In this document: piece by piece, positions 7,993 through 58,109 of the stretch
Layout of the letters: each line of letters starts with the position of its first letter
How positions within the stretch are numbered: the first letter of the stretch is position 1
Assembly: GCF_023115355.1 (NCBI RefSeq)
Contig: NZ_CP096019.1
Span: 2,046,001-2,110,000 of the forward strand
Length of the DNA stretch: 64,000 nt
Direction of reading: 5' to 3'
Source of the DNA: Halocatena salina
GTDB taxonomy: Archaea; Halobacteriota; Halobacteria; Halobacteriales; Haloarculaceae
Position numbers and translations under genes: made by a program
The notes under the pieces: generated by a model
What the model saw: the letters and a program-made list of their open reading frames with translations, nothing else
The model's database searches: none
Told to the model about the DNA's origin: nothing

Positions 7993-8439
7993 ATGTCCGA
8001 GGAATTTCCGGACGATGTCGTTGCGATGGTGCAGCAGTTCATCGAGCAGAACCACGGCTATCTCTCGTGGCTCGGCGTGACGGTCGATGAGTTTACACAC
8101 GACAGCATGACGCTCACCATTCCCTTCGACGAGAAGCTCACCAATCCGACCGAACCCCCGACGATGCACGGCGGCATCGCGGCCACGCTCGTCGACACCG
8201 CCGGCGGAGTGGCGCTTCGACCCCATCTCGACAACCCACTCGGTGGTGGCGTGGCCACGATCAACCTCAACGTCAACTACCTCCGGCGGGCGGCCGGTGA
8301 TCTCACCGCCCGCGCCGAGGTCATCCGAGCCGGCAACTCCGTCGGAATCAGCCGGGTGACCGTCGAAAGCCAGACCCCCGACGACGAAACCCACCCTGTT
8401 GCTGTCGGCCAAGGAGCCTATCGTCTGTTTCAGGGGTAG
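7993..8439 (+). CDS. PaaI-family hotdog-fold thioesterase
   Basis: A 148-aa hotdog protein hydrolysing an acyl- or aryl-CoA thioester (family knowledge). It has the signature MHGGIAATLVDTAGG (catalytic region, residues about 52-66), then INLNVNYLRRA and a closing AVGQGAYRLF strand. Length is normal for the family. ATG 7993 (MSEEF) is preferred to the in-frame GTG at 7981. It lies divergent from the MDR reductase, and the two could act in one fatty or aromatic acyl pathway, but no further pathway genes are present. Confidence 0.92.
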   Translation: MSEEFPDDVVAMVQQFIEQNHGYLSWLGVTVDEFTHDSMTLTIPFDEKLTNPTEPPTMHGGIAATLVDTAGGVALRPHLDNPLGGGVATINLNVNYLRRAAGDLTARAEVIRAGNSVGISRVTVESQTPDDETHPVAVGQGAYRLFQG

Positions 8440-8460
8440 CTGACCGACCCGACAGCGCCA

Positions 8461-9033
8461 TTACGCGAATTCGATCGCGTCGATCGGTTTGACCTCTCCA
8501 AACAACCAATCAGCGTGTTCGAGCGCGTACTCGCGGTGATGGTCCTCGATGGAACCGACTGCATCCTCGACGACGACGGGGCGGAAATCCCGAAGACCGG
8601 CACTACCGGCGGTATGCAGCACACAAACGTTGGCGAGCGTCCCACAGATGAGCAGATCCCGAATGCCGTGGGTATCCAGAAACCCTTCGAGATCGGTGCG
8701 ATAGAACGCGTCGTAAGTGTGTTTTGTGACGACGTGATCGTCGGGTTCCACGGGAAGTCCCTCGACGATCTCGGTCTCCCACGTTCCTTCGAGCAGGTGC
8801 TCGCCCCACCGGTCGAACTCGTCGTAGTAGTGGGTGTCCTCGAACTGTTCGTCTGTGTGGACATCACGGGTGTAAATCACCTGTGCACCCACGGCGCGCG
8901 CCAGTTCGACGACCTCACGAACGGGATCGATGGCCGCTTCGCTGTCGGGGGCGTACAGGCTCCCATCCGGGTGACAAAATCCATTTTGCATGTCGACGAC
9001 CACCGCTGCGGTCGTCTCGGGATCAAACTGCAT
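8461..9033 (-). CDS. Isochorismatase-family cysteine hydrolase (nicotinamidase-like)
   Basis: A 190-aa hydrolase with the full catalytic triad of the family: Asp14 (VVVDMQNGF), Lys104 (VVTKHTYDAF) and Cys137 (CGTLANVCVL). The cis-peptide region before the cysteine is also recognisable. Nicotinamidase is a reasonable guess because nicotinate phosphoribosyltransferase is encoded 5 kb away and NadM 24 kb away, but related amidases share the same residues. Start ATG 9033 matches the family N-terminus; the longer frame adds 22 residues without similarity. It is convergent with the thioesterase gene. Confidence 0.9.
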   Translation of the reverse strand: MQFDPETTAAVVVDMQNGFCHPDGSLYAPDSEAAIDPVREVVELARAVGAQVIYTRDVHTDEQFEDTHYYDEFDRWGEHLLEGTWETEIVEGLPVEPDDHVVTKHTYDAFYRTDLEGFLDTHGIRDLLICGTLANVCVLHTAGSAGLRDFRPVVVEDAVGSIEDHHREYALEHADWLFGEVKPIDAIEFA

Positions 9034-9107
9034 GGCTGAAGATTGATGAGCAGGAGGCAAAACGTTTCTTCCGTGGTGTTTTTCCCGGTTGCCACTCACG
9101 GTTAGAT

Positions 9108-10565
9108 ATGCGATTCCGTCCGGTGATGCTTCTCGTTATGGTCGTTCTCGCTGGGTGTGGCTCCATGCCGACCCTCGGAACAGATTCGTCCCCGACCGAA
9201 ACGGCTCCCTCTGCGCCGAACAGTCAGGGCACTCTGACCGCGCCGGGTGGGACTGACGATCCCGACATCGGTCGCCACAACGGCTACACCCACAATCAAA
9301 CGCTCTCGATCGAAGCTACCGACGGTCTCAACGAAAGCGAACGGGAGGCCGTCGTTTCGAGAGCCATGGCCCGCGTGGAACTCGTTCGTGGAACGGATTT
9401 CAAACAGGACGTTTCGGTCGATATCCGGTCTCGATCCGAGTTCAAACAGGGACAAGAAACGGCGAACGTATCGGAGTCGTTCCAGCAGTTCGATAACGCG
9501 AAATTCGAAGCGATGTTTCTTGTCGGTGAAGGGACTAATTCACTCAGCACCCAAAGCACCAGCCGCGGGGAAAACGTTCTGGGCTACTACAGCAACGACG
9601 AGGAGTCGATCGTGATCGTGAGCGACAGCGAAACGCCGACGCTCGACGGTGAAAAGACACTCGCTCATGAACTTACGCACGCCCTTCAAGACCAGCATTT
9701 CAATCTCTCATCGTACAACAAAACGACACGAGACGAGTACAATGCGGTCAACGGACTGATCGAAGGCGAGGCGAACCTCGTTCAACAACGATACATGTCG
9801 CTCTGTTCCGGTGAGTGGAACTGTCTCCCGAACGCCGAGTCGGGTGGCAGCACGTCGCCACCGGACAACTGGGGCGTCTATCTACTCGATTACTTCCCGT
9901 ACGCCGAGGGGCTGGAGTTCGTCACCGCCAATCAGCGTCAAGGCGGATGGGATCGGGTCGACGAACTGTTTTCGGAGCCACCTGAAACGACCGAGCAGGT
10001 GATCCATCCCGAAACGTACGACACTGACCGTCCGGCGTCGGTTTCTCTTACGGACCGGAACCGAAACGGCTGGGATCGGGTCCATCTAGATCCCGAGAAA
10101 CGAGGCGCGACACGCCCGGATCACGCCGTTCTCGGTCAGTCGGCGATGACCGTGATGTTCGCCCAAACGGCGTTCGATTCGTACAACCGATCCGAAGTCG
10201 TCTCTCGAAAGGCGATTTTGAACCCCAGTGGGGATGGAAGTTCGAACTCCCTCAACTACAGCCTCTCAGCCACGACGGGATGGAACGGGGATCGGCTCCA
10301 CGTGTACGAGAAAAACGACAAGACGGGGTACGTCTGGAAATCGAACTGGGACTCCTCACAGAACGCCTCGGAATTTGCAGATGCATACCGAGCGCTTCTC
10401 AGCCATTGGGGTGGAACGAAAACCGGTGACGGAACGTGGGTCATTGAGGACGGTCCCTTTGCGGATGCGTTCTCGCTAACGGTGACCGATTCGACGGTCG
10501 TCATCGTGAACGCACCCACGACTGAGGATCTCGGCGACGTTCGATCGGAGGCGTCCAATGGATGA
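9108..10565 (+). CDS. Surface lipoprotein with HELTH zinc-protease motif (Hvo_1808-like), copy 1
   Basis: A 485-aa predicted lipoprotein. The N-terminus is a hydrophobic signal with lipobox VVLAGCGS, followed by a Ser/Thr/Pro-rich linker to about residue 60. The body has LAHELTHALQDQHFN with HELTH at residues 187-191 and a following NGLIEGEANLVQQRY helix, the layout of a gluzincin-like metalloprotease. It resembles the haloarchaeal Hvo_1808 family of surface proteins (recalled). Its stop overlaps the start of a paralogue by 8 bp, so the two were made by tandem duplication and are co-translated. Substrate unknown. Confidence 0.88.
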   Translation: MRFRPVMLLVMVVLAGCGSMPTLGTDSSPTETAPSAPNSQGTLTAPGGTDDPDIGRHNGYTHNQTLSIEATDGLNESEREAVVSRAMARVELVRGTDFKQDVSVDIRSRSEFKQGQETANVSESFQQFDNAKFEAMFLVGEGTNSLSTQSTSRGENVLGYYSNDEESIVIVSDSETPTLDGEKTLAHELTHALQDQHFNLSSYNKTTRDEYNAVNGLIEGEANLVQQRYMSLCSGEWNCLPNAESGGSTSPPDNWGVYLLDYFPYAEGLEFVTANQRQGGWDRVDELFSEPPETTEQVIHPETYDTDRPASVSLTDRNRNGWDRVHLDPEKRGATRPDHAVLGQSAMTVMFAQTAFDSYNRSEVVSRKAILNPSGDGSSNSLNYSLSATTGWNGDRLHVYEKNDKTGYVWKSNWDSSQNASEFADAYRALLSHWGGTKTGDGTWVIEDGPFADAFSLTVTDSTVVIVNAPTTEDLGDVRSEASNG

Positions 10566-11841
10566 CCGGCAAATAGCTCTCCTCGTCCTCACGCTGTCCA
10601 CAGTGATCGCTGGCTGTTCCACCCCCTTCGGGACGGGAGACGATCTCGGACAGGAGGGCGGATACAGCGCGACCGACGAACTGGACGTGACCACCGATGA
10701 CGGTCTCAACGAGTCCGAACGCGAGAGCGTTGTCCATCGAACGATGGCTCGTATCGAGGTGATTCGAGGGTTGGAGTTCGACCGTGATGTTTCTGTCCGC
10801 GTCATTTCCCGTGCCGAGTACCGCGAGCAACGCAACCAGTTCGGGCTTTCATCGACGAACGAGACCGAGTGGACCGAACAGGTGTGGGAAGCGCTGTTTC
10901 TCGTCGACGAATCCACGAACGCGACGGAAGCCATCTCGGACGTGTACCGTGGCTCTGTGCTTGGGTACTACTCCGAGGAGGATATCGTCATCGTGAGCGA
11001 CAGCGATACCCCTCGTATCGATCCCTACACCCTTGCACACGAACTCACACACGCCCTTCAGGACCAACAGCTCACCCTCAACGTCCGCGACGAGACGCAG
11101 GATGCACAGCTTGCGACTAACGGATTGATCGAAGGTGATGCAAACGCAGTGGAATACGAGTATCGACGCCGGTGTGAAGGATCGTGGTCGTGTCTTCCAC
11201 GACCGGTACAGCCCTCCGACCGCTCCGACCGAAATCAGGGTGTGTACACGACGATCAGCATGCCCTACGTCAAAGGGCCGGCGTTCATTGAGGCGCTCTC
11301 CGAGCGCGGAGGATGGGAAACGGTCAACGACGCCTACGAATCGCTTCCCGAAAGTACCGAGCAAATCATCCACCCGACGCGATACCCGGACGAAAGTCCC
11401 GAATCCGTCCGGATAGCTGATCGTTCAGCCGAGCAGTGGCAGCGATTTACTGCTTCGCCCGGGACCGAAACGGTCGGCGAAGCGTCGATATACACGATGT
11501 TTCGGACCAACGGCGTCATCCCGGCTCCGCAGAACGGTCGAGAAAACTACTCCCATCCGATGTCTACGGGGTGGGCTGGTGACCGGCTCGTTCCCTACAA
11601 CAACACGGACGGGCAGAACGGCTACGTCTGGAAAACGAAATGGGACACGGAACGGGACGCAAAACAGTTCGTAGACGGATACGAACGGCTCCTTGAGCAA
11701 CACAACGCCAGCGCCGTCGACGGAACGCACCGTCTTCCCGAATCCGATCCCTACGCCGACGCGTTCCGGGTGACCCGCGAGGGCCGAACCGTAACCATCG
11801 TGAATGCTCCCACAGCCGACGAACTCGATCGAATTCACTGA
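10558..11841 (+). CDS. Surface lipoprotein with HELTH zinc-protease motif (Hvo_1808-like), copy 2
   Basis: A 427-aa paralogue of the preceding gene, starting inside its last codons. It has a lipobox (STVIAGCST), a shorter linker and LAHELTHALQDQQLT with HELTH at residues 161-165, then NGLIEGDANAVEYEY. Shared landmarks with copy 1 include VLGYYS, IVIVSDS, STEQIIHP near the middle and GYVWK, ADAF, VTIVNAPT near the end. Both copies keep the catalytic residues, so neither is a decayed duplicate. The role in surface-protein turnover is inference. Confidence 0.88.
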   Translation: MDDRQIALLVLTLSTVIAGCSTPFGTGDDLGQEGGYSATDELDVTTDDGLNESERESVVHRTMARIEVIRGLEFDRDVSVRVISRAEYREQRNQFGLSSTNETEWTEQVWEALFLVDESTNATEAISDVYRGSVLGYYSEEDIVIVSDSDTPRIDPYTLAHELTHALQDQQLTLNVRDETQDAQLATNGLIEGDANAVEYEYRRRCEGSWSCLPRPVQPSDRSDRNQGVYTTISMPYVKGPAFIEALSERGGWETVNDAYESLPESTEQIIHPTRYPDESPESVRIADRSAEQWQRFTASPGTETVGEASIYTMFRTNGVIPAPQNGRENYSHPMSTGWAGDRLVPYNNTDGQNGYVWKTKWDTERDAKQFVDGYERLLEQHNASAVDGTHRLPESDPYADAFRVTREGRTVTIVNAPTADELDRIH

Positions 11842-47800: not shown

Positions 47801-48166
47801 CTACTCCTGTTGTGCTTCGTCGACGAGTGCCCGAATCTCGTCGGCTCGGCTCTTGGTCGTGGCGAACCGCGAGAACACCCACGACAGCTGATCGATGACG
47901 GCGTCGTGACCAGCCTGTGTCAACGCGTACTGGTTCGTGCGTTTGTCGAGTTCGCTTTTTTCCACTAGGCCCATCTCCACCAGATCGTCCAGGTTCGGAT
48001 ACAGACGCCCGTGGTTGACTTCCGAACCGTAGTACTGCTCTAGTTCGCGCTTGATCGCAAGCCCGTACCGTGCCTCCTCCGAAAGGATCACGAGGATGTT
48101 CTGCTGAAATGCGGTCAGGTCGCGTTCGATGCGCGATACGCCGGAGACTGACTGTGCCTCTGACAT
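47801..48166 (-). CDS. PadR-family transcriptional regulator
   Basis: A 121-aa wHTH regulator with ILVILSEEARYGLAIKRELEQYYGSEV, then NHGRLYPNLDDLVEMGLVEKSELD (the PadR recognition helix), a wing (YALTQAGHDAV) and a short C-terminal dimerisation helix. PadR proteins repress detoxification or efflux genes in response to ligands, or act on their own promoter. No efflux gene is adjacent; its 5' region (48167-48387) is AT-rich and shared with the divergent pyrophosphatase gene. Confidence 0.92.
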   Translation of the reverse strand: MSEAQSVSGVSRIERDLTAFQQNILVILSEEARYGLAIKRELEQYYGSEVNHGRLYPNLDDLVEMGLVEKSELDKRTNQYALTQAGHDAVIDQLSWVFSRFATTKSRADEIRALVDEAQQE

Positions 48167-48387
48167 GACCTATACAAATGTCACCACTCTATTTAAAACT
48201 TTTCAACCATCAATCGAGTATTTGTGCAGGAACGCCACTGCACGGATGTTGTTTGTATAAACTACCGGTCATACCCGATACTATTAAGTGATAATGGATT
48301 TTTTCTGTCTAAAACAATATTGCATATTATTCCACAAACGAGACGTATGTCGAAAGAAATTTTGTGTCACCCTTCCCAGTGTGGGCG

Positions 48388-48921
48388 ATGACGAACCTGT
48401 GGGAGGATCTCGAAACCGGACCGAACCCGCCAGAAACGATTTACGCTGTGATCGAGTGTCTGAAAGGCGAACGGAACAAATACGAGTACGACAAAGACGT
48501 TCCGGGCGTCGTACTCGACCGGGTGCTCCACAGTAACGTACATTATCCATCCGATTATGGGTTTATTCCCCGTTCGTACTACGACGACGAGGATCCGTTC
48601 GACGTGCTCGTGCTCGTCGAAGACGCGACGTTCCCGGGCTGTGTGATCGAAGCCCGTCCGGTCGCCCTCATGAAGATGGACGACGACGGCGAACAGGACG
48701 ATAAGGTCATCGCCGTGCCGACGGAGGACCCCCGGTACGATCACATTCAATCGCTTACGGACATCCCCCAACAAACCCGAGACGAGATAGACGAGTTCTT
48801 CGCAACGTATAAGAATCTCGAGGAAGGGAAGGAGGTCGAAACACTCGGTTGGGAGGACAAACAGGCTGCACTCGACGCGATCGAACACGCACAGGAACTG
48901 TATCAAGAACGGTTCGCGTAA
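48388..48921 (+). CDS. ppa: Inorganic pyrophosphatase, family I
   Basis: A 177-aa cytosolic PPase driving biosynthesis by hydrolysing PPi. Signature residues are in KYEYDKD, YPSDYGFIPRSYYDDEDPFDVLVL (the D-x-DPxD metal site) and KMDDDGEQDDKVIAVP. Length is normal. ATG 48388 (MTNLWEDLETG) is the conserved haloarchaeal N-terminus; the upstream ATG at 48364 is not. Confidence 0.97.
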   Translation: MTNLWEDLETGPNPPETIYAVIECLKGERNKYEYDKDVPGVVLDRVLHSNVHYPSDYGFIPRSYYDDEDPFDVLVLVEDATFPGCVIEARPVALMKMDDDGEQDDKVIAVPTEDPRYDHIQSLTDIPQQTRDEIDEFFATYKNLEEGKEVETLGWEDKQAALDAIEHAQELYQERFA

Positions 48922-49076
48922 ACGGCCTGGGGACGGTGTTCCCTTCTCGTGGTCCATTCTGCCCGCAGCAGTTCGCCCGAAGAGCGACGGATGTCCACCG
49001 GGCATACGGCTGTTCGGCACCATGCGTTATGATCATGGGTAATTATTTGTCCCTCGCGCCCGTACGAACGAACGAA

Positions 49077-49199
49077 ATGAAACGGCGTGTACCCATCGGT
49101 ATCGACCATTTGACCGTCGTCCCGGAGAACGTCGATACCGATTCCGAGCGTGAGGTGAGTGAGGAATCGACAGCTGTCGGCCGGTCGTTGGGGGCGTAA
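49077..49199 (+). CDS. Possible 40-aa small protein
   Basis: Beginning MKRRVPIGIDHLTVVPENV, with an acidic centre and a small tail, this frame has GC-ending codons and an AT-rich TAATTATTT 34 bp before its ATG. It lies in a 326-bp gap (48922-49247) otherwise without a gene. No family is known to me; it could be a random frame. Confidence 0.35.
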   Translation: MKRRVPIGIDHLTVVPENVDTDSEREVSEESTAVGRSLGA

Positions 49200-49247
49200 T
49201 CGGCGGGGAAAAGAAGGTTCTTGTGTGTTCCTCACGCAATCGCCGGT

Positions 49248-50591
49248 ATGGGACTGTTCGATCGACTTCGTGGTGATGACGGACCGCGAGTTGCGTTCAT
49301 CGGTATCGACGGCGTGCCGTACAGCCTCATCGCCGACAATCCGGATGATTTTCCGAATTTGACAGCGATGGCGGACGACGGCGCAGCGGGACCGATCGAC
49401 AGCATCGTTCCCCCTGAGTCAAGCGCCTGTTGGCCGTCGCTGACGACGGGTGTCAACCCCGGTGAGACAGGCGTGTACGGTTTTCAGGACCGAGAGGTCG
49501 GATCATACGAGACGTACGTGCCGATGGGCCGAGACGTCCAAGCGACCCGGTTGTGGGATCGCGTCACGTCCGCCGACCGGGACGCGACTGTGATGAACGT
49601 CCCGGTCACGTTCCCACCCCAGCGGAACGTCCAACGGATGGTGTCCGGCTTTCTGTCTCCCGGCGTCGAGAAAGCCGCTTACCCCGACGATCTCGGTCAG
49701 TCATTAGCGGAAAACGACTACCGCATCGACGTCAATGCGAAGCTCGGTCACCAGGACGATAAATCGGAGTTCATGGCCGACGCTCACGAGACCATCGATG
49801 CACGCTTCGAGGCGTTCAAACAGTACATTGAGGAAGACGACTGGGATCTCTTCTTTGGGGTCTTCATGACCACCGATCGGGTCAACCACTTCCTGTTCAA
49901 AGATTACGAGCAGGATGGGGAGAACCGCGAGGCGTTCATGGAATTCTACCGGAAAGTTGATGAGTATATCGGCCGTCTCCGTGCTCTTCTCGACGACGAC
50001 ACGACGTTGGTCGTCGCAAGCGACCACGGATTCACGAGCGAGGATTATGAGGTCCATCTCAACACGTGGCTGCGCGAGCAGGGATGGCTCGATTACCGCA
50101 CTGACGATCACAGCGACCTGTCCGACATCACTGATGATACGCGGGCCTACTCGCTTATTCCGGGTCGAATGTACATCAATCTCGACGGACGCGAACCCCG
50201 CGGAAGCGTGCCCGAATCGGAGTATGAGGAGACTCGTGAGGAGCTTATCGACATGATCGAGGATCTCGAAGGCCCGGACGGAACACCAGTCGCAGACCGT
50301 ATCGTCACGAACGACGACGCGTTCCGTGGCGACCATGACGACATCGCGCCGGATCTCGTCGTGATCCCCAACCACGGGTTCGATCTCAAAGCCGGGTTCA
50401 AAGACGGCAGCGATGTCTTCGATGTGGGACCCAGAAACGGGATGCACAGCTTCGAAAACGCGTGTCTGTTCGTCGACGATCCAACCGCGCGCATCAACGA
50501 TGTCGACCTGTTTGACATCGCGCCGACGGTGCTCGATCTGATGGAGATCGAGTACGACCGAACCACCTTCGACGGAGCGAGCCTCGTCTGA
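49248..50591 (+). CDS. Alkaline-phosphatase-superfamily phosphodiesterase/nucleotide-pyrophosphatase-like
   Basis: A 447-aa enzyme of the type I phosphodiesterase branch. Metal ligands and nucleophile are readable: Asp in FIGIDGVPYSLI, the nucleophile region PPESSACWPSLTTGVNPG, the TTDRVNHFLF helix, VVASDHGFTSED, and His in RNGMHSFENACLFVDDP. No signal peptide is seen, so it acts in the cytosol or at the inner membrane face. Relatives hydrolyse nucleotide-sugars or glycan phosphates, which fits the glycan-type genes that follow. Start ATG 49248 is the typical MGLFDRL. Confidence 0.9.
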   Translation: MGLFDRLRGDDGPRVAFIGIDGVPYSLIADNPDDFPNLTAMADDGAAGPIDSIVPPESSACWPSLTTGVNPGETGVYGFQDREVGSYETYVPMGRDVQATRLWDRVTSADRDATVMNVPVTFPPQRNVQRMVSGFLSPGVEKAAYPDDLGQSLAENDYRIDVNAKLGHQDDKSEFMADAHETIDARFEAFKQYIEEDDWDLFFGVFMTTDRVNHFLFKDYEQDGENREAFMEFYRKVDEYIGRLRALLDDDTTLVVASDHGFTSEDYEVHLNTWLREQGWLDYRTDDHSDLSDITDDTRAYSLIPGRMYINLDGREPRGSVPESEYEETREELIDMIEDLEGPDGTPVADRIVTNDDAFRGDHDDIAPDLVVIPNHGFDLKAGFKDGSDVFDVGPRNGMHSFENACLFVDDPTARINDVDLFDIAPTVLDLMEIEYDRTTFDGASLV

Positions 50592-50682
50592 ACGCTGCTT
50601 TGTAGCCACTGCTTGCCGTTCCAACTTCGTATTCGAAAGTCATCATACGGATTTAACAGTGGTAGCGATGAACACGTGGTAG

Positions 50683-52494
50683 ATGAATCACTCGCGCCGG
50701 ATCGGGATCTTTTTAATAGCGATCAGTACGCATCTCGGATCGCTCGGATACTGGTTCGTGGCGGTCGACGCTCCGAAGCTGATCCTTTCCAGTCGGATCC
50801 GGAGCTGGAACGACCTGTACGAGATATTCACACAGCCGTTGATGCACGAAACGGCGTTTCCGGAACTCGGACTGTTCTATCGACCGCTTGCTAGCCTCAC
50901 GTACTCGTTCGATTACTGGGTATGGGGAGTCGATCCGTTCGGGTATCATCTCACGAATCTCCTCCTCCAAGGGATCGCAGTAGTGTTGGTCGCACTCGTG
51001 GTTGGAGACCTGACAGACGATAGGGTTGTCGGGGAGCTGACGGCCGTGTTGTTCGCGCTCCATCCGCTCGCTGCCGAGATCGTACCGGCGACTCCTCGTC
51101 GCCACGACATCCTCATGTTGATCTTCCTTCTCGGCTCGCTATCGCTGTTCGTCAAAAGTCAACGCCGTGAGACGACACGGCGGTCGTCGTTTCTGTACGT
51201 CGGTGGGGCGCTCGTATCGTATGTGCTCGCACTCGGGTCCAAGGAGCCTGCACTCGTCGTTCCCGCGTTAGTATTCGTCTGGACGGCGCTTCAAGGCGTC
51301 GACAGCGATCCGTACGACACGCTATGGCGCTCGGTTCGGGCCACCGTTCCGTTCGGAGTCGTGACGGTCGCGTATATCGCGGTTCGGGTCACCGTGTTGG
51401 GGGGAATCGGTGGATACCACGGCATCGATGGTAAGCTCTCGGACGTAAGCAGCGTCGTGGTGGCGTATCTCGTTTCGATCGCGTATCCGATCGATGTTTT
51501 CGGCAGCGACCTCGCGGTCGGGTGGCTGTGGACCGGTGTGGTGCTCCTCATGGGCTGTCTCCTTGCGTTCGTCCTCATCGGCGTTGTCGCGTCAGTCATT
51601 GATGGTCATGTCGGAGCGAACTGGTTTCCACTCGTCGTTCCCTTCGTGGGGGGTTGTGTCCTGATCGGGATGTCGCTCGGTCTGGCCGAACTCGATCCGC
51701 TCGTTGCGCTGCTACCTGAGTTTACGCCAACACCGTATTCCCGTCTCCACACCATTACCGGCTTGCTTCTCGTAGTGACGTGTCTCCTCGGTGGGCTATG
51801 GATAATCGGTGCACACCCCGCAACGAGAGACCGGATCGATCTCCGGACGGTCTCGTTTTTCATCGCATGGTTTGCCGTTCCGCTGGTGGTGTACGCCCAA
51901 GACGGTCGATATCTGCTCCGAACGGGCTACGCTTCGATCGTTCCTGCGATGGCGATCCTCGCGGTGATATCGATCAGCGCGCTCCGAGCGCTCCGGACTA
52001 GCGATCGAATGCTCGATGAAAACGCTGTGCTCGTCGGCATCGTTCTGTTGCTTCTCGTTCCCCAGATCTCCGCCTCGCCCCTGTTTCATTCCTACGATGG
52101 GTGGGAAACAACAGGGGACGTAAACCGAATGGTGCTCGACGGACTCGCGGCGGACGTCGGAGATCGAAACGGGACCACCAGCCTCCACATCCACGGGCTG
52201 CCAAACGGGATCGCAGAACAGGACGAGTCGTTTCCCCAAGTAAAATCGATCGTATATCCCGGGGCACAGGCTACTCGGGCGTGGCTCAAACTGGTCCATC
52301 CTGGTCGGGAGCTGATCGTACACAGCGAGCACCCCGTCCGGCTCGACAGCGTACCCAAAGCGGTTTCCATCACCACCACCAGCAACTCCGAGACTGTGAT
52401 CGTACGGATTCACTACGAACACGATTCCGAGCGTGGTGCCCTGTCTTCGATCGAACGCCGGGCGAACGCCCGCAGCCGAAGCGACGGTATCTGA
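50683..52494 (+). CDS. TMTC-like GT-C membrane glycosyltransferase
   Basis: A 603-aa protein with about 11-12 membrane helices and a final soluble region of about 120 residues. The first luminal loop region carries LFYRPLASLTYSFDYWVWGVDPFGYHLTN and then LFALHPLAAEIV, as in TMTC/PMT-type enzymes that use lipid-linked sugars. The acidic catalytic residue expected in the first loop could be the Asp of VDAPKL. The C-terminal domain (about 480-600) is unrecognised. Likely transfers a sugar from a dolichyl or polyprenyl carrier at the extracellular face (inference). Confidence 0.8.
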   Translation: MNHSRRIGIFLIAISTHLGSLGYWFVAVDAPKLILSSRIRSWNDLYEIFTQPLMHETAFPELGLFYRPLASLTYSFDYWVWGVDPFGYHLTNLLLQGIAVVLVALVVGDLTDDRVVGELTAVLFALHPLAAEIVPATPRRHDILMLIFLLGSLSLFVKSQRRETTRRSSFLYVGGALVSYVLALGSKEPALVVPALVFVWTALQGVDSDPYDTLWRSVRATVPFGVVTVAYIAVRVTVLGGIGGYHGIDGKLSDVSSVVVAYLVSIAYPIDVFGSDLAVGWLWTGVVLLMGCLLAFVLIGVVASVIDGHVGANWFPLVVPFVGGCVLIGMSLGLAELDPLVALLPEFTPTPYSRLHTITGLLLVVTCLLGGLWIIGAHPATRDRIDLRTVSFFIAWFAVPLVVYAQDGRYLLRTGYASIVPAMAILAVISISALRALRTSDRMLDENAVLVGIVLLLLVPQISASPLFHSYDGWETTGDVNRMVLDGLAADVGDRNGTTSLHIHGLPNGIAEQDESFPQVKSIVYPGAQATRAWLKLVHPGRELIVHSEHPVRLDSVPKAVSITTTSNSETVIVRIHYEHDSERGALSSIERRANARSRSDGI

Positions 52495-52511
52495 GGCGTT
52501 CCCGGTACGGC

Positions 52512-53546
52512 TTACTCGTTTCGGTCGGAGGGATCGTCCGGGTGGGTGGTGTTCGGATTCGGACTCGGTTTGGGATCGGTGTCTGTGCGTCGCTCGGTCC
52601 ACAGTCGATACGTGGTGAAGACGATCCCCCCGACGAACGCACCAAACCACAGTGTTCCGACGCGTACGAGGACCGTCGATCCGACGGCGACCGGTCGATC
52701 GTAACCGACGGCGATGAGGGTTCCAACCATACTGGTTTCGGTGGCTCCGACCCCACCGGGGAGGAAACTCACCGCTCCCACGATCGACCCGAGACCGAAA
52801 ACAGACAGTCCGAGTATCGGATCGGCGCTGACACCGAACCCCTCGAGAAGGACCCAGAATGCCAGCCCTTCGAGTCCCCACGCCAGCAGACTCAGCCCCA
52901 TCGCAATCCCCAGTGGCCGCGGACGGAACAACGCGTACGTCCGCTCGTACAGCGTCGTCAGCTCCGTCACGTACGAGCCGACTACCGGTAGTCGTTGACA
53001 CCACGAGAGCGCTTTCAGACAGAGCCACCGCCATTGGAGGAGTAACAGTCCCCCGAGAACGACGACGACGATTCCGACCAGTACGACGACCGACCGCTGG
53101 TACAACAGGACGGCCAGTGCAGCAAAGCTACTCAGAGCGAGGAGATCCGTGATCCGTTCTGCCCCGACCGCTGGCACAGTCCGCCCTACGGATACTCCTT
53201 TGAGGTCTCTGAGGAACCACGCTTTCCACAGTTCGCCTACCTTTCCGGGCGTGACGACGAGCATCAATCCGCTGAAGAACACGAGTGCGCTGTCACGGAT
53301 CGAGATTTCGATCCCGAGGGTGCGGAGGTAGTACTCCCATTTCAGAAACCGAACGCCGTAGCCCACGACCACGAGACCGAGCATCCCACTCACGGCACTC
53401 AGATCTACGTCGAGAAGCGCCATCACGACTGCGTTCGCATCCCCGAACAGGAACAACACGAAAAACACCACGAGTGACCCGAGTGCCGTCAGCCACACCC
53501 CATGATCGGAGACGATGTCTGCCCAGAAGCGAACGATCCGGTTCAT
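52512..53546 (-). CDS. LPG-synthase TM-region (UPF0104) membrane protein, flippase-like
   Basis: A 344-aa protein with eight or so hydrophobic segments of the lysylphosphatidylglycerol_TM family: RFLKWEYYLRTLGIEISIRDSALVFFSGLM, then TPGKVGELWKAWFLRD and SFLPGGVGATETSMVGTLIAVG are the diagnostic blocks. The family includes lipid flippases and glycosyltransferase partners. It overlaps the PHP gene by 4 bp (ATGA), forming a three-gene unit with PHP and the UbiA-type transferase. Confidence 0.92.
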   Translation of the reverse strand: MNRIVRFWADIVSDHGVWLTALGSLVVFFVLFLFGDANAVVMALLDVDLSAVSGMLGLVVVGYGVRFLKWEYYLRTLGIEISIRDSALVFFSGLMLVVTPGKVGELWKAWFLRDLKGVSVGRTVPAVGAERITDLLALSSFAALAVLLYQRSVVVLVGIVVVVLGGLLLLQWRWLCLKALSWCQRLPVVGSYVTELTTLYERTYALFRPRPLGIAMGLSLLAWGLEGLAFWVLLEGFGVSADPILGLSVFGLGSIVGAVSFLPGGVGATETSMVGTLIAVGYDRPVAVGSTVLVRVGTLWFGAFVGGIVFTTYRLWTERRTDTDPKPSPNPNTTHPDDPSDRNE

Positions 53547-54235
53547 CGTTCGTGCTCGCGGTGAGCTGCGAATCCGATCGTTCGATCCACCGAGACCCGC
53601 AGCTGATGTAGCTTCGTTGCGATATGTCCCGAAACGTATCCGCCGTGGCCACGGGATGAAAGGGCCGTCGTGGAACCGTCTCTGAGCACGTCGAGGAGCG
53701 GTCGGTTGCCGTCGATTACGGTGTGTGCCCGACCGATCTCCATTGGAAAGTGGGCGTCGCTTCCGCCGGTCGCCGGCAGTCCGTGGGTCTGGGCGAACGT
53801 CTGTGCCCGATCGTTATCCCGCGAGAGGAGACAGCGGGAGTTACTGACTTCGACCGCATCGACGGCGTCAGCGATGGCGTCGAGATCGGTGGTGTACTCT
53901 TCTCGCAGTCGATCGAAGGGGTGTGAGAGGATCGCCACGCCGCCCTGTTCGTGAACGTGCTCGATGACGGAGAGTGGATCGTCTGGGGCTGGCGGGGTCT
54001 CCACCCCTAACGCGAGGAGATGGCCTTGGCTTGTCGTCACCTCGACACCGGGGATCACCGTCAGTTCCAGGGGTGCTGCTGTACGAACGGCGTCGACACC
54101 TGCGAGCGTGTCGTGGTTCGTCACGGCGATCCCATCGAGTCCGCGGTCGACAGCCGCCTCGACCACGGCTTGGGGTGTCGCGTTCGAACAGGGAGAGGCA
54201 TCCGTGTGTACCTGCAGATCGTATTTGCGCATCAT
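53543..54235 (-). CDS. PHP-domain phosphoesterase
   Basis: A 230-aa PHP-fold hydrolase: KYDLQVHTDASPC (the HxH metal pair), DGIAVTNHDTLAG, TVIPGVEVTTSQGHLL, AILSHPFDR and GGSDAHFPMEIGRAH. All four PHP motifs are intact. Relatives dephosphorylate nucleotides or sugar phosphates. The stop of the upstream UbiA gene shares a base with this ATG (TAATG), so it may dephosphorylate the product of that transferase (hypothesis). Confidence 0.93.
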   Translation of the reverse strand: MMRKYDLQVHTDASPCSNATPQAVVEAAVDRGLDGIAVTNHDTLAGVDAVRTAAPLELTVIPGVEVTTSQGHLLALGVETPPAPDDPLSVIEHVHEQGGVAILSHPFDRLREEYTTDLDAIADAVDAVEVSNSRCLLSRDNDRAQTFAQTHGLPATGGSDAHFPMEIGRAHTVIDGNRPLLDVLRDGSTTALSSRGHGGYVSGHIATKLHQLRVSVDRTIGFAAHREHER

Positions 54236-55143
54236 TAGAGCAGCTCCATGATGTGAACCGGCACCTGATACAGCACGCCAACCGTGATGAGTAACCACAC
54301 CAGCAACGTGAGAAACATCGGGCGATCGGTCAGTAGATACTCCGGACGACCGGCGACCGCCGTCGTGTGGGTGAGATGATGGTACCGAAACACGCCATAA
54401 AAGACGAACGGCAGCGCGAACATCATCGGCGTTTCGGCGTGGAAGAACGTGTATAACGCGTACGTCATCAACAACACCGCCATCGTCACGACCAGCAACT
54501 GATCGAGTTCCTCGTTCGTGTACACTCCCAGTGACTCCCGGGTCGAATCAGGATTCGAAACGGTTTCGAGTTCGTGACGACGTTTCCCGACCGAGAGGAC
54601 GAGCGCCAACAGAAACGTACAGAGGATCAGCCACGGACTGAGATACACGCCGATGGCGACGACGCCCGCTGCTGCTCGGAGAACGAATCCGATCCCGACC
54701 GTAAGCACGTCCACTAACACCACCTCTTTGAGGAACATCGAATAGATCACGTTTTGACCGAGATACCCCACGAGCACGAGCAACACCCACCCATCGATGA
54801 TGTATCCTACGAGAAGCCCCCCGAACAGCAGTCCGACCGCAAACGTCCCTGCGACCGGTACCGAGAGCTGCCCGCTCGCGATCGGACGGTGTCGCTTTTC
54901 GGGATGGTTGCGGTCCTCTTCTCGGTCACAGATGTCGTTGATCACATATACCGCTCCTGCTACCGCGGTGAATGCCACGATCGCACCCGCGACACTCCGC
55001 CACGCTGGGATCGAAAACAGGTTTCGCGAGAACAGTAATCCCAACAACAGAACGCTCTGCTTGTACCATTGATGGGGTCGAAGCTCGCGGAGTAACCCCC
55101 GTATCGTGTTTGCCGATTGGGAGGTAATCGATCGATTGGACAT
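54235..55143 (-). CDS. UbiA-superfamily transferase, decaprenyl-phosphate phosphoribosyltransferase type
   Basis: A 302-aa membrane prenyltransferase with nine hydrophobic segments. RELRPHQWYKQSVLL near the N-terminus and the first Asp-rich motif NDICDREEDRNHP followed by EKRHRPIASGQ match the DPPR-synthase branch rather than ubiquinone or menaquinone enzymes. That branch moves phosphoribose from PRPP to a polyprenyl phosphate. A second acidic motif is weak (VDVLTVGIGFVLRAAAG). Start ATG 55143 (MSNRS) is preferred to upstream codons. Confidence 0.88.
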   Translation of the reverse strand: MSNRSITSQSANTIRGLLRELRPHQWYKQSVLLLGLLFSRNLFSIPAWRSVAGAIVAFTAVAGAVYVINDICDREEDRNHPEKRHRPIASGQLSVPVAGTFAVGLLFGGLLVGYIIDGWVLLVLVGYLGQNVIYSMFLKEVVLVDVLTVGIGFVLRAAAGVVAIGVYLSPWLILCTFLLALVLSVGKRRHELETVSNPDSTRESLGVYTNEELDQLLVVTMAVLLMTYALYTFFHAETPMMFALPFVFYGVFRYHHLTHTTAVAGRPEYLLTDRPMFLTLLVWLLITVGVLYQVPVHIMELL

Positions 55144-55204
55144 TGATGACAGCGAATTACGCAGGCCACAATCAAAAAGGGCCACGGCGCAAATTCCATA
55201 TTCT

Positions 55205-56290
55205 ATGGAAACGAACTCTGAAACGGATCAATCACACGACCCAGTGTTGGTCACTGGCGGAACTGGTTTCCTCGGACTCCACATGTGCCAATACTTTGAT
55301 GATAATGGGTGGGATGTTGTGGCGTTCGATCGTGTTCCGTTTACCGAGTCGGACGACGTGTCTGATATTGAGTACGTCGAGGGTGACGTTCGAGAGGAGG
55401 ATGCGGTTCGTGCGGTGATCGACAGGGTTGAACCGGATGTCGTCGTTCACGCGGCGGCGGCCTTGCCGTTGTGGGACGATGAGACGATCCGTTCGGTTAC
55501 CATCGATGGAACGCGATCGGTGCTGTGGGCGGCCCAAGAGGCGGGAGTCGATCGGGTCGTGTACATCTCCTCGACGGCCGTGTACGGCGTCCACGAGGAA
55601 CATCCGATCACCGAATCTTCGCCGCTTGACGGCGTCGGTCCGTATGGGAACGCGAAAGTAGAGGCTGAAAAGCTGTGTGATGATTTCCGTCGTCGCGGGC
55701 TGTGTGTCCCGATTCTCCGGCCCAAGACGTTCATTGGTCCCCAGCGTCTCGGTGTGTTTCAAGTACTGTTCGATTGGGTTGAGGACGAAGCGAACATCCC
55801 GCTGGTGGGGTGGGGGCACAACGAGTATCAGCTGTTGCACGTTCATGACCTCGTTCGAGCCATCGAACTCGTGGCGACCGCCGATGCCGAGCGCGCCGAT
55901 GGGACGTTCAACGTCGGCGCGACGGAGTACGGCACGATGAAATCGGACTTTCAGGCGCTCATCGACCACGCCGGGACTGGCAAACGCGTGGTTGGGACGC
56001 CTGCGTTGCTGACGGTGGCCACACTCAGACTGTTGAACGAACTGAACCTGTCACCGTTGTACCCGTGGATCTACGAGACGGCCCACCACGATTCGTACGT
56101 GTCTGTCGAGAAACTCCAAAATCTCGGCTGGGAACCGGCGTATTCGAACACCGAGGCGTTGATTGACACGTACGATTGGTATCTCGACCAGTACGAACCC
56201 GATGGCACGACCGACACCGGGGTCGATCACCGCGTCGCGTGGGATCAGGGCGCGCTCGCGCTGGTCAAACGCGCGTTTCAAGCGTTCTGA
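55205..56290 (+). CDS. NAD-dependent epimerase/dehydratase (extended SDR)
   Basis: A 361-aa extended SDR. The nucleotide-binding motif is VTGGTGFLGLHM (residues about 17-27), with the Ser of STAVYG and the active-site Tyr-Lys in VGPYGNAKVEAEKL. The C-terminal domain is long, with LSPLYPWIYETAHHD. It is divergent from the UbiA gene, 61 bp between starts, so the two share a promoter region. Likely an epimerase of a nucleotide- or lipid-linked sugar; a ribosyl-to-arabinosyl role would fit the context but is a guess. Confidence 0.93.
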   Translation: METNSETDQSHDPVLVTGGTGFLGLHMCQYFDDNGWDVVAFDRVPFTESDDVSDIEYVEGDVREEDAVRAVIDRVEPDVVVHAAAALPLWDDETIRSVTIDGTRSVLWAAQEAGVDRVVYISSTAVYGVHEEHPITESSPLDGVGPYGNAKVEAEKLCDDFRRRGLCVPILRPKTFIGPQRLGVFQVLFDWVEDEANIPLVGWGHNEYQLLHVHDLVRAIELVATADAERADGTFNVGATEYGTMKSDFQALIDHAGTGKRVVGTPALLTVATLRLLNELNLSPLYPWIYETAHHDSYVSVEKLQNLGWEPAYSNTEALIDTYDWYLDQYEPDGTTDTGVDHRVAWDQGALALVKRAFQAF

Positions 56291-56367
56291 TCCTCAGATC
56301 CCACCACGACCACCACGAACCGCTTCCAAACAACAAACACACTTGTAGGGAGTGTGTACGCCCGAGC

Positions 56368-56793
56368 ATGATTCAGGACGTCGTGCAAGATCCCGGATCG
56401 CTATCCCCGACAGCGCTCAAACAGCAGTACGAATCGGAGCTTCGGGGGATCATCGAATCGATCGGACCGGACACGGCAACCCAACGCACGGAGATCGATC
56501 GCGAGCGGATCGATGCGATCGCTGCTGGCGGCGATGAGATCCCCTTGACGGAGGCAGCGGCCGTCTTCTCGTTGCGCGATGACGCGCCCGACGCCGAAAC
56601 CATCGAAATCGAGGCTCGGGATGCGCTCCTCATGGGAATGACGACGGCGGTGTTGGACGTCGAGACGCTCGAAAGCCAGATCGACGGGCAGATTGAGGCA
56701 CGGGCGATTCAACAGAAGGTCGAGGGCCGAACCGCCATGACGCTCGGAGAGTTCGCGCTTCTTTATGGGACGATTGAGGCGCGTAAGGCATGA
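56368..56793 (+). CDS. DUF5791-family protein
   Basis: A 141-aa acidic helical protein: MIQDVVQDPGSLSPTALKQQYE, a middle LTEAAAVFSLRDD and DALLMGMTTAVLDVETL, ending RTAMTLGEFALLYGTIEARK. It looks like a haloarchaeal DUF5791 member (recalled). ATG 56368 matches the conserved N-terminus. It overlaps the next gene by 4 bp (ATGA). Function unknown. Confidence 0.88.
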   Translation: MIQDVVQDPGSLSPTALKQQYESELRGIIESIGPDTATQRTEIDRERIDAIAAGGDEIPLTEAAAVFSLRDDAPDAETIEIEARDALLMGMTTAVLDVETLESQIDGQIEARAIQQKVEGRTAMTLGEFALLYGTIEARKA

Positions 56794-57716
56794 GAGTCGC
56801 TGTTCTCGGCTGTGGCTACGTCGGTCTCGAACTGTGCCGCCAGCTGCAAGCTGGCTACCAGAGGGACGTGATCTCTCTTCCTCGTCAGCCGACCGATCAC
56901 GACGTGATCGGAGTTCGTCGGAGCCAGCAGGGCATCGAAGCGATCGAAGCGACGGGCGCACAGGCAGTTCAGGCCGACGTCACCGATGCTGACGCGCTCA
57001 CCGCCGTCCCCGACGTGGATGCACTCGTGTTCAGCGCCAGCTCGGGCGGGCGAGACGCGGACGCTGCCCGGTCGGTGTACGTCGAGGGATTGAAAACAGT
57101 CATCGAGCACTTCAGCGCGCGCGAGCATCCGCCCGAACAGTTGGTGTACACGTCGAGCACCGGCGTGTACGGCGACCACGACGGCGGGTGGGTGGACGAA
57201 GCTACACCGACCGAACCGACGACCGAAAAAACTCGTGTGCTTGCAAATGCCGAACGGGTCGCCCGCGAGTACGCCGCAGAGCACGGGATCGATGGCACTG
57301 TCGTCAGGTTCGCCGGGCTGTACGGTCCCGATCGGTACCGCCTCAACCGGTATCTCGACGGTCCGGTCACGGAGGGGTATCTGAACATGATTCATCGAGC
57401 GGATGCGGCCGGGATCGTTCGGTTCGCGCTCACCGAGGGGACGCCTGAAACGTTGCTCGCGGTCGACGACGAACCGGTTGACAAATGGGCGTCTTCGGCG
57501 TGGCTTGCAGACCAGTGTGGCGTCGAACAGCCCCCCACGCAGACCAAAGCCGAGCGCTTGGCTGATGAGGATCTTTCGACGCCCGCGAAGCGTCGTATCG
57601 AAACGAGCAAACGCTGCTCGAACGATCTGGTTCGGGAGCTGGGGTATGAGTTTGCGTATCCAACGTATCAGGAAGGCTATCAGAACGCGATCGAACGGTA
57701 TCGGGACGAGAACTGA
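56790..57716 (+). CDS. Atypical SDR-family protein
   Basis: A 308-aa NAD(P)-binding protein. The N-terminus has VAVLGCGYVGLELCRQL (GxGxxG type), and TSSTGVYGDHDGGWVDEATP follows mid-chain. The catalytic Tyr of the YxxxK pair is absent at the expected position (EKTRVLANAERVARE), so it may be a nucleotide sensor or an altered reductase, as in other atypical SDRs. It is coupled by ATGA to the DUF5791 gene. Confidence 0.87.
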   Translation: MRVAVLGCGYVGLELCRQLQAGYQRDVISLPRQPTDHDVIGVRRSQQGIEAIEATGAQAVQADVTDADALTAVPDVDALVFSASSGGRDADAARSVYVEGLKTVIEHFSAREHPPEQLVYTSSTGVYGDHDGGWVDEATPTEPTTEKTRVLANAERVAREYAAEHGIDGTVVRFAGLYGPDRYRLNRYLDGPVTEGYLNMIHRADAAGIVRFALTEGTPETLLAVDDEPVDKWASSAWLADQCGVEQPPTQTKAERLADEDLSTPAKRRIETSKRCSNDLVRELGYEFAYPTYQEGYQNAIERYRDEN

Positions 57717-57743
57717 ACCGTTACTGATGGTTCATTGGGTTGA

Positions 57744-58109
57744 ACGAGAGATGATTCTCTCTGCCTACGCAGTAGTGCCGAGAATAGCCACGACGAGGCG
57801 TTCGCGTATTGTAATCCAGTTCCAGATGCGGTGTTTGCTCGGTTCGCCAAGATCGAGTGACTGCTTGGATACTCCCATGACCACGTTCGTTACCCTGACC
57901 CAGCGTTACGCCGCCTCAAGCGCGTCAACGACGCTGGTGAGCGTGAACAGCCGGGGATCATCGCGCTCACCGAGATCACGTCGCTCACGACCAGGATGAG
58001 CGTGCTCGGCGGTCTGCTGTTCGTGAGTTCGATGGTAGCCATCGCGGTCTGGTCCCGGTCGGGCTGGCGATCCGATCCTTCCGTAGATGGTTCTGACAAT
58101 GAATTGTAA
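57744..58109 (+). pseudogene. Remnant of a small membrane-protein gene with in-frame stop
   Basis: Frame 0 reads through a protein-like sequence, interrupted by TGA at 57858-57860. Before it: AENSHDEAFAYCNPVPDAVF and RFAKIE. After it: HDHVRYPDPALRRLKRVNDA, then GIIALTEITSLTTRMSVLGG, a hydrophobic LLFVSSMVAIAVWSRSG and stop TAA at 58107. Codons on both sides look haloarchaeal, and there is no usable start codon just after the TGA, so the most likely reading is a decayed gene. A sequencing error at the TGA is the main alternative. Family not recognised. Confidence 0.5.

Follow-up and report, generated by a model that had tools for sequence, protein, structure and literature searches.

A putative lipid-linked pentose module in Halocatena salina and other haloarchaea

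Described systems and the Halocatena locus

In Citrobacter, a polyprenyl-phosphate phosphoribosyltransferase (PPPRS) with a phosphatase domain acts alongside a proposed flippase, a C-class glycosyltransferase (GT-C) and a short-chain dehydrogenase/reductase (SDR) (Kelly 2024, PMC11127046). In C. youngae O1/O2 these parts are ORF15 (PPPRS-PRP), ORF14 (MATE), ORF12 (GT136) and ORF13 (SDR epimerase); presence of the SDR goes with xylofuranose in place of ribofuranose, and ORF13 is held to carry out the epimerisation (PMC11127046). Here we describe a five-gene block at positions 50683-56290 of a 64,000-nucleotide stretch of the haloarchaeon Halocatena salina (contig NZ_CP096019.1, positions 2,046,001 to 2,110,000; hereafter the window). 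This block is quite probably a self-contained cassette for extracytoplasmic pentosylation, corresponding in Archaea to the bacterial three-component pentofuranose system. Its open reading frames (n = 5) fill the interval as follows.

50683-52494, plus strand: TMTC/PMT-like GT-C membrane protein (603 residues), a putative transferase using lipid-linked pentose outside the cell
52512-53546, minus strand: UPF0104 / LPG_synthase_TM membrane protein (344 residues), a putative lipid-linked pentose flippase
53543-54235, minus strand: PHP-fold phosphoesterase (230 residues), a putative 5'-phosphatase of polyprenyl-phospho-ribose-5-phosphate
54235-55143, minus strand: UbiA-superfamily protein resembling decaprenyl-phosphate phosphoribosyltransferase (DPPRS; 302 residues from ATG), a putative polyprenyl-phosphate phosphoribosyltransferase
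55144-55204, no strand: divergent intergenic region between UbiA and SDR (61 base pairs)
55205-56290, plus strand: GalE-type SDR (361 residues from ATG), a putative epimerase of lipid-linked ribofuranose

As the original prediction for this locus had it, the minus-strand genes are coupled through TAATG (UbiA stop, PHP start) and ATGA (PHP stop, UPF0104 start), both exact in the sequence; UbiA and SDR diverge across an ATG-to-ATG gap of exactly 61 base pairs, and the TMTC-like frame adjoins the other four genes. The order SDR / UbiA-PHP-UPF0104 recurs in all ten loci sampled from the haloarchaeal class besides the window (one genome has two copies), so the arrangement is not due to chance. An Rfam scan of 48000-58000 returned no RNA.

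Like the C. youngae system, the block combines a candidate UbiA-type phosphoribosyl pyrophosphate (PRPP):polyprenyl-phosphate phosphoribosyltransferase, a single and optional GalE-type SDR, a putative dedicated flippase and a GT-C protein. It differs in its separate PHP protein where C. youngae has a fused HAD phosphatase domain, in its UPF0104 rather than MATE flippase, in its lineage-exchanged transferase (not GT136), and in its archaeal host, where the lipid is presumably dolichol phosphate. The gene kinds for PPPRS, phosphatase, flippase and GT-C stand together in a block that Halocatena genomes either carry whole or lack altogether, the GT-C call drawing on a weak Pfam match. Because UPF0104 and a PMT/TMTC-like protein replace MATE (or SMR/GtrA) and GT136, we regard the module as a variant of the three-component system and not as a strict member.

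The mycobacterial decaprenylphosphoryl arabinose pathway (Rv3806c, Rv3807c, DprE1/DprE2, Rv3789, Emb/Aft) likewise links an Rv3806c-type UbiA to a phosphatase gene, and its lipid-phosphate pentose is used by GT-C enzymes outside the membrane, as would be the case here. Unlike that pathway, the haloarchaeal block has replacements for the PAP2 phosphatase and the SMR flippase, lacks DprE1, shows only distant sequence identity and probably yields a product other than arabinose. Phage GtrABC seroconversion cassettes are similarly small sets of lipid-sugar synthase, flippase and acceptor-specific transferase, and one archaeal copy of the module lies in a Halanaeroarchaeum prophage; GtrABC differs in handling a hexose, with a nucleotide-sugar-dependent synthase and the GtrA flippase. 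A description of GtrA, GtrB and Gtr is given in PMC11127046. Among Archaea, Haloferax volcanii adds a terminal mannose via AglD, AglR and AglS, the dolichol phosphate (DolP)-linked sugar being flipped and then transferred outside (PMC3871713). The block would resemble this branch in carrying its sugar on a separate dolichol phosphate that is flipped and added outside, and a PF15971 gene flanks the module in Natrialbaceae. The Hfx. volcanii branch differs in its donor synthase (the glycosyltransferase AglD), its sugar (mannose) and its flippase (AglR, of another family).

Gene identities and co-inheritance

The UbiA protein was predicted to carry DPPRS motifs, and every catalytic residue checked is kept (N69, D70, D73, D77, H80, K83, R86, R188 and E191). 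N69, D70, D73 and D77 in loop II and R188 and E191 in loop IV are invariant among 11 haloarchaeal and four other archaeal sequences; matched by motif, they correspond respectively to N247, D248, D251, D255, R366 and E369, the residues tested in C. youngae ORF15 (PMC11127046). The Pfam match is UbiA (91 bits), and the PDB contains only two sequence relatives, the DPPRS of M. tuberculosis (8j8j, E 1.5e-32) and a variant of that enzyme (8j8k). We built a maximum-likelihood tree of 42 proteins, 34 of them DPPRS-like (8j8j included), with six further UbiA paralogues encoded in this genome and the E. coli enzymes UbiA and CyoE making up the rest. It separates the haloarchaeal UbiA proteins and bacterial DPPRS from the own-genome paralogues and the E. 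coli UbiA and heme-O enzymes (support 100/98), with the haloarchaeal proteins forming a clade (96/94); the window copy is 94% identical to that of H. pleomorpha. The phylogenetic check envisaged in the original prediction thus came out in its favour. These data support a place on the DPPRS/PPPRS side of the superfamily, and PRPP-dependent transfer is the predicted activity.

The SDR matches Pfam Epimerase (147 bits) and carries TGGTGFLG (GxxGxxG) and YGNAK (YxxxK), bearing out its description as a Tyr-Lys epimerase, here of GalE type. UPF0104 matches PF03706 (LPG_synthase_TM; 140.5 bits) and TIGR00374 (87 bits), a family for which a flippase role in archaeal glycosylation has been predicted (PMC5898192). 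The PHP protein matches PF02811 (PHP) and PF13263 (PHP_C); its AlphaFold model (predicted local distance difference test, pLDDT, 87.6) has as best Foldseek matches the PHP enzymes 7ug9, 2anu, 7rty and 2yb1. In the metal motif HxH...H...E...H...DxH, the second His, H41, E65, H105, D160 and H162 are invariant, and the first His is Gln (Q8). The idea that a PHP protein stands in for the PAP2 phosphatase gains weight from the linkage of PHP to DPPRS-like UbiA outside the haloarchaea too, as detailed below; the activity itself is a prediction from sequence.

A separate observation concerns the neighbour of UPF0104: a membrane gene of VTT-domain (DedA) type abuts it at L041:15433-16188, and also at L038:5395-6090 and L040:5361-6011 (L numbers denote our sampled loci, G numbers genomes). 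Members of the DedA family have been associated with the recycling of polyprenyl phosphate.

We surveyed 145 haloarchaeal genomes, in which orthologues score at least 340 bits for UbiA, 560 for SDR, 315 for UPF0104 and 245 for PHP. Close UbiA proteins occur in 10 of them (next below 37 bits) and SDR orthologues in exactly the same 10, with none elsewhere at E<=1e-60. PHP (next best 128 bits) and UPF0104 occur in these 10 and in G066, where a decayed copy (L120:7457-9194) keeps PHP and UPF0104 intact, retains only the last ~41 residues of UbiA, and has no SDR. The neighbours are therefore conserved together, as had been anticipated for such a survey. The same order is also found in Haloarcula amylolytica, Halalkalicoccus, Natrinema, Natrialba, Natronorubrum, Halococcus, Natronococcus, Haloterrigena and Halostagnicola, with several of these copies on plasmids. 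The divergent UbiA/SDR arrangement is kept in most loci; the L068 plasmid copy has its SDR on the other side, and four Halobacteriales metagenome-assembled genomes (MAGs) hold UbiA-PHP-UPF0104 without a nearby SDR. Since the carriers span five families of the order, their patchy distribution has likely arisen through transfer or loss.

Two congeneric genomes (loci L090 and L091) lack the whole five-gene block, TMTC-like gene included, between the same flanks, namely pyrophosphatase, phosphodiesterase, DUF5791 and a second SDR, all in order. The block is absent as a unit, and the TMTC-like gene therefore belongs to the unit in Halocatena. At the module site both congeners have ~1 kb (L090:9650-10680, L091:9720-10740) with a helix-turn-helix regulator gene, identified by eye; because this gene stands there, the site represents an exchange rather than a simple empty site. 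The upstream inorganic pyrophosphatase (48364) and type I phosphodiesterase (49221) were considered as members of the system and ruled out, as they remain in module-free genomes.

Across the phylum, 22 of the 393 genomes searched have a DPPRS-like UbiA at E<=1e-40. UbiA, PHP and UPF0104 occur together in seven non-haloarchaeal loci (L133, L134, L135, L137, L139, L141 and L145); L138 and L140 have UbiA and PHP only, and L132, on one short contig, UbiA and UPF0104. PHP homologues in archaea outside the haloarchaea keep the canonical DLHTH/DLHVH. All seven full loci lack the SDR and hold a DUF362 protein, possibly an alternative pathway step. At the non-haloarchaeal locus L144 (G337; 8096-10991), the gene beside DPPRS-like UbiA encodes an SDR that shares 53% identity with its haloarchaeal relative.

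In bacteria, PAP2 phosphatases adjoin DPPRS genes in Rhodococcus, Tsukamurella and Marivivens, and the Lactococcus DPPRS lies beside a HAD phosphatase and GtrA. Bacterial relatives of the SDR (35-40% identity) adjoin or lie near DPPRS-like UbiA in Streptomyces SAT1, Nonomuraea and rhizobia, so the link between the SDR and this chemistry spans domains and does not depend on the haloarchaeal cluster; the Streptomyces SAT1 gene run also holds a UPF0104 protein and an EEP phosphatase. On two rhizobial plasmids (L111:7434-15499 and L114:8953-16895) we observed a long UbiA, two SDRs, an SMR transporter, a GMC oxidoreductase and a large hypothetical protein. This set looks like a related pentose pathway, with the long UbiA read as a HAD-type fusion.

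Proposed route and competing readings

From these data we infer the reactions, the sugar and the acceptor. UbiA would charge dolichol or polyprenyl phosphate from PRPP, and PHP would remove the 5'-phosphate. The SDR would then epimerise lipid-linked ribofuranose, most simply at C3 to give xylofuranose, the conversion ascribed to C. youngae ORF13, and copies lacking an SDR would deliver ribose. UPF0104 would flip the lipid-linked pentose, and a GT-C-type transferase (a TMTC-like protein here, an AglS-like one in Natrialbaceae and a GT39-like one in Halalkalicoccus) would move it to an acceptor outside the cell, for example an exopolysaccharide or a glycan of the S-layer or archaellins. The original proposal of an archaeal lipid-linked pentose module draws support from the UbiA tree, the conserved residues and the conserved neighbours.

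The transferase component varies. The TMTC-like protein has ~10 hydrophobic segments and a weak Pfam match to PMT (PF02366; 23.4 against a cut-off of 22.7), and its profile found no match among PDB sequences. A polytopic transferase-type membrane gene lies within ~3.4 kb of UbiA in 22 of 29 haloarchaeal loci. It is TMTC-like in Halocatena (four loci) and PF15971 (DolP-mannose mannosyltransferase, AglS type) or a homologue in Natrialbaceae (11 loci). A PMT_2/GT39-like gene takes this place in Halalkalicoccus, in G060 and at one copy in G088; at the other copy in G088, and in Halococcus and its relatives, it is an unannotated polytopic gene, presumed to be of transferase type. The TMTC-like partner named originally is thus constant in Halocatena, but elsewhere other transferase-type membrane genes replace it. 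We infer that such a changing partner is what an acceptor-specific component would look like.

The same variability could instead mean that the GT-C neighbour is incidental, the donor module being as described and lipid-linked ribose its end product or a precursor of modified membrane lipids. The neighbour's changes of family fit this reading, as does the failure to find a transferase near the H. amylolytica copy and the QS/QH MAG copies. It is nonetheless unlikely, given that the TMTC-like gene shares the presence/absence block, that most loci have a transferase-type gene and that sulfotransferase genes recur at several of them.

Arabinose, the product of the actinobacterial sets with which the locus was originally compared, is unsupported: the module has no DprE1 orthologue, and a single GalE-like SDR fits a ribose-to-xylose conversion better. 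A DprE1 partner was sought in the module and the genome, and none was found. The sole ALO-family protein of the genome is aldonolactone/alditol oxidase-like, scoring 182 bits with L-galactono-lactone dehydrogenase, 152 with xylitol oxidase and 50 with DprE1. Because no DprE1 was found and the SDR is GalE-like, ribose or xylose is a likelier product than arabinose. For the SDR and an unlinked flavin adenine dinucleotide (FAD) oxidase to carry out the DprE1/DprE2 two-step epimerisation to lipid-linked arabinofuranose is accordingly improbable. That route can appeal to the presence of this one ALO-family oxidase and to actinobacteria and a Flammeovirgaceae plasmid (L105), where an FAD oxidase lies near DPPRS, on L105 beside an SDR as well; yet the oxidase, besides its much closer resemblance to the other two enzymes, is 2 Mb away, and no FAD oxidase partner was noticed in annotated module loci. 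Least probable is that UbiA makes another phosphoglycosyl or prenyl product (from another pentose-phosphate donor or on a soluble acceptor) and that PHP is a nucleotide phosphoesterase acting on another substrate: UbiA enzymes are diverse, the best PHP sequence matches include the RNase AM and nucleoside bisphosphate phosphatase families and a metal ligand is substituted, but the tree and catalytic residues side with DPPRS and PHP is coupled or linked to UbiA across archaeal families.

Several findings weigh against the pentosylation cassette itself. The best NCBIfam model for UbiA, decaprenyl-phosphate phosphoribosyltransferase NF008977, narrowly misses its curated cut-off (217.7 against 234 bits), and NF008978 scores 193.6, short of its cut-off of 207; because of these scores we label the protein DPPRS-like and not a strict equivalog. 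The first metal His is Gln (DLQVH) in all 23 aligned haloarchaeal PHP copies, so the metal site is altered, and the PHP activity is the least certain cytoplasmic step because of this one ligand. Some non-haloarchaeal copies (L136 and L142-L144) have no PHP or UPF0104 nearby. The AlphaFold model of the TMTC-like protein, built from five sequences, gave no usable fold (pLDDT 36); as there is neither a usable model nor a PDB match, its GT-C class rests on the weak Pfam match and on context. The transferase partner switches family between lineages, and no pentofuranose glycan linked to these genes in Archaea was found.

For a broader form of the cassette proposal the balance is even. It would make the module a widespread archaeal system for lipid-linked pentofuranose donors, with a UbiA-PHP-UPF0104 core in which PHP is the dedicated 5'-phosphatase, an optional epimerase (the SDR in haloarchaea, perhaps a DUF362 protein in other archaea of the phylum) and an interchangeable GT-C partner, spread among haloarchaea on plasmids and a prophage as a cassette for switching surface glycans.

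Possible mobility and meaning for archaeal surfaces

A published account of prophage 2 of Halanaeroarchaeum sulfurireducens M27-SA2 lists genes HLASA_2008-2012 but does not interpret them (PMC4866403). Their order (hypothetical, PHP, DPPRS, hypothetical, epimerase) matches the module. Several module copies are plasmid-borne, and in H. amylolytica an integrase gene (L041:8134-9165) is ~1.7 kb away from the module. In scans of viral contigs, neither the single UbiA nor the family alignment recovered a relative, and the INPHARED phage collection yielded one distant match only. The module may reasonably be viewed as a candidate mobile surface-modifying cassette, conceivably with a role like that in seroconversion.

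In Natrialbaceae and Halalkalicoccus the module repeatedly has as its neighbour either a gene resembling arylsulfotransferases (ASST) or a sulfotransferase with CysC (L067:17816-19120, L068:21312-23633, L039, L055 and L057-L060). The pentose or its glycan may be sulfated.

Archaeal surface glycans are highly diverse, and their known donors are mostly nucleotide sugars or DolP-hexoses. A full-text search of the open-access literature returned no archaeal lipid-linked pentose pathway of this kind, which is weak evidence of absence. Routes of this kind thus appear to have been described so far only in bacteria, and the archaeal version may be new as a variant. If our reading is correct, Archaea would have a donor class new to them, namely a lipid-linked pentose derived straight from PRPP, and the PHP phosphatase and UPF0104 flippase families would gain a testable substrate. 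One logic, consisting of DPPRS, phosphatase, epimerase, flippase and GT-C, would then have come together on several occasions, using phosphatases and flippases that are unrelated to one another. The module is patchily distributed, has copies on plasmids and in a prophage, and exchanges its transferase; these features suggest that it is a mobile means of changing the cell surface, which would bear on virus resistance and mating in haloarchaea.

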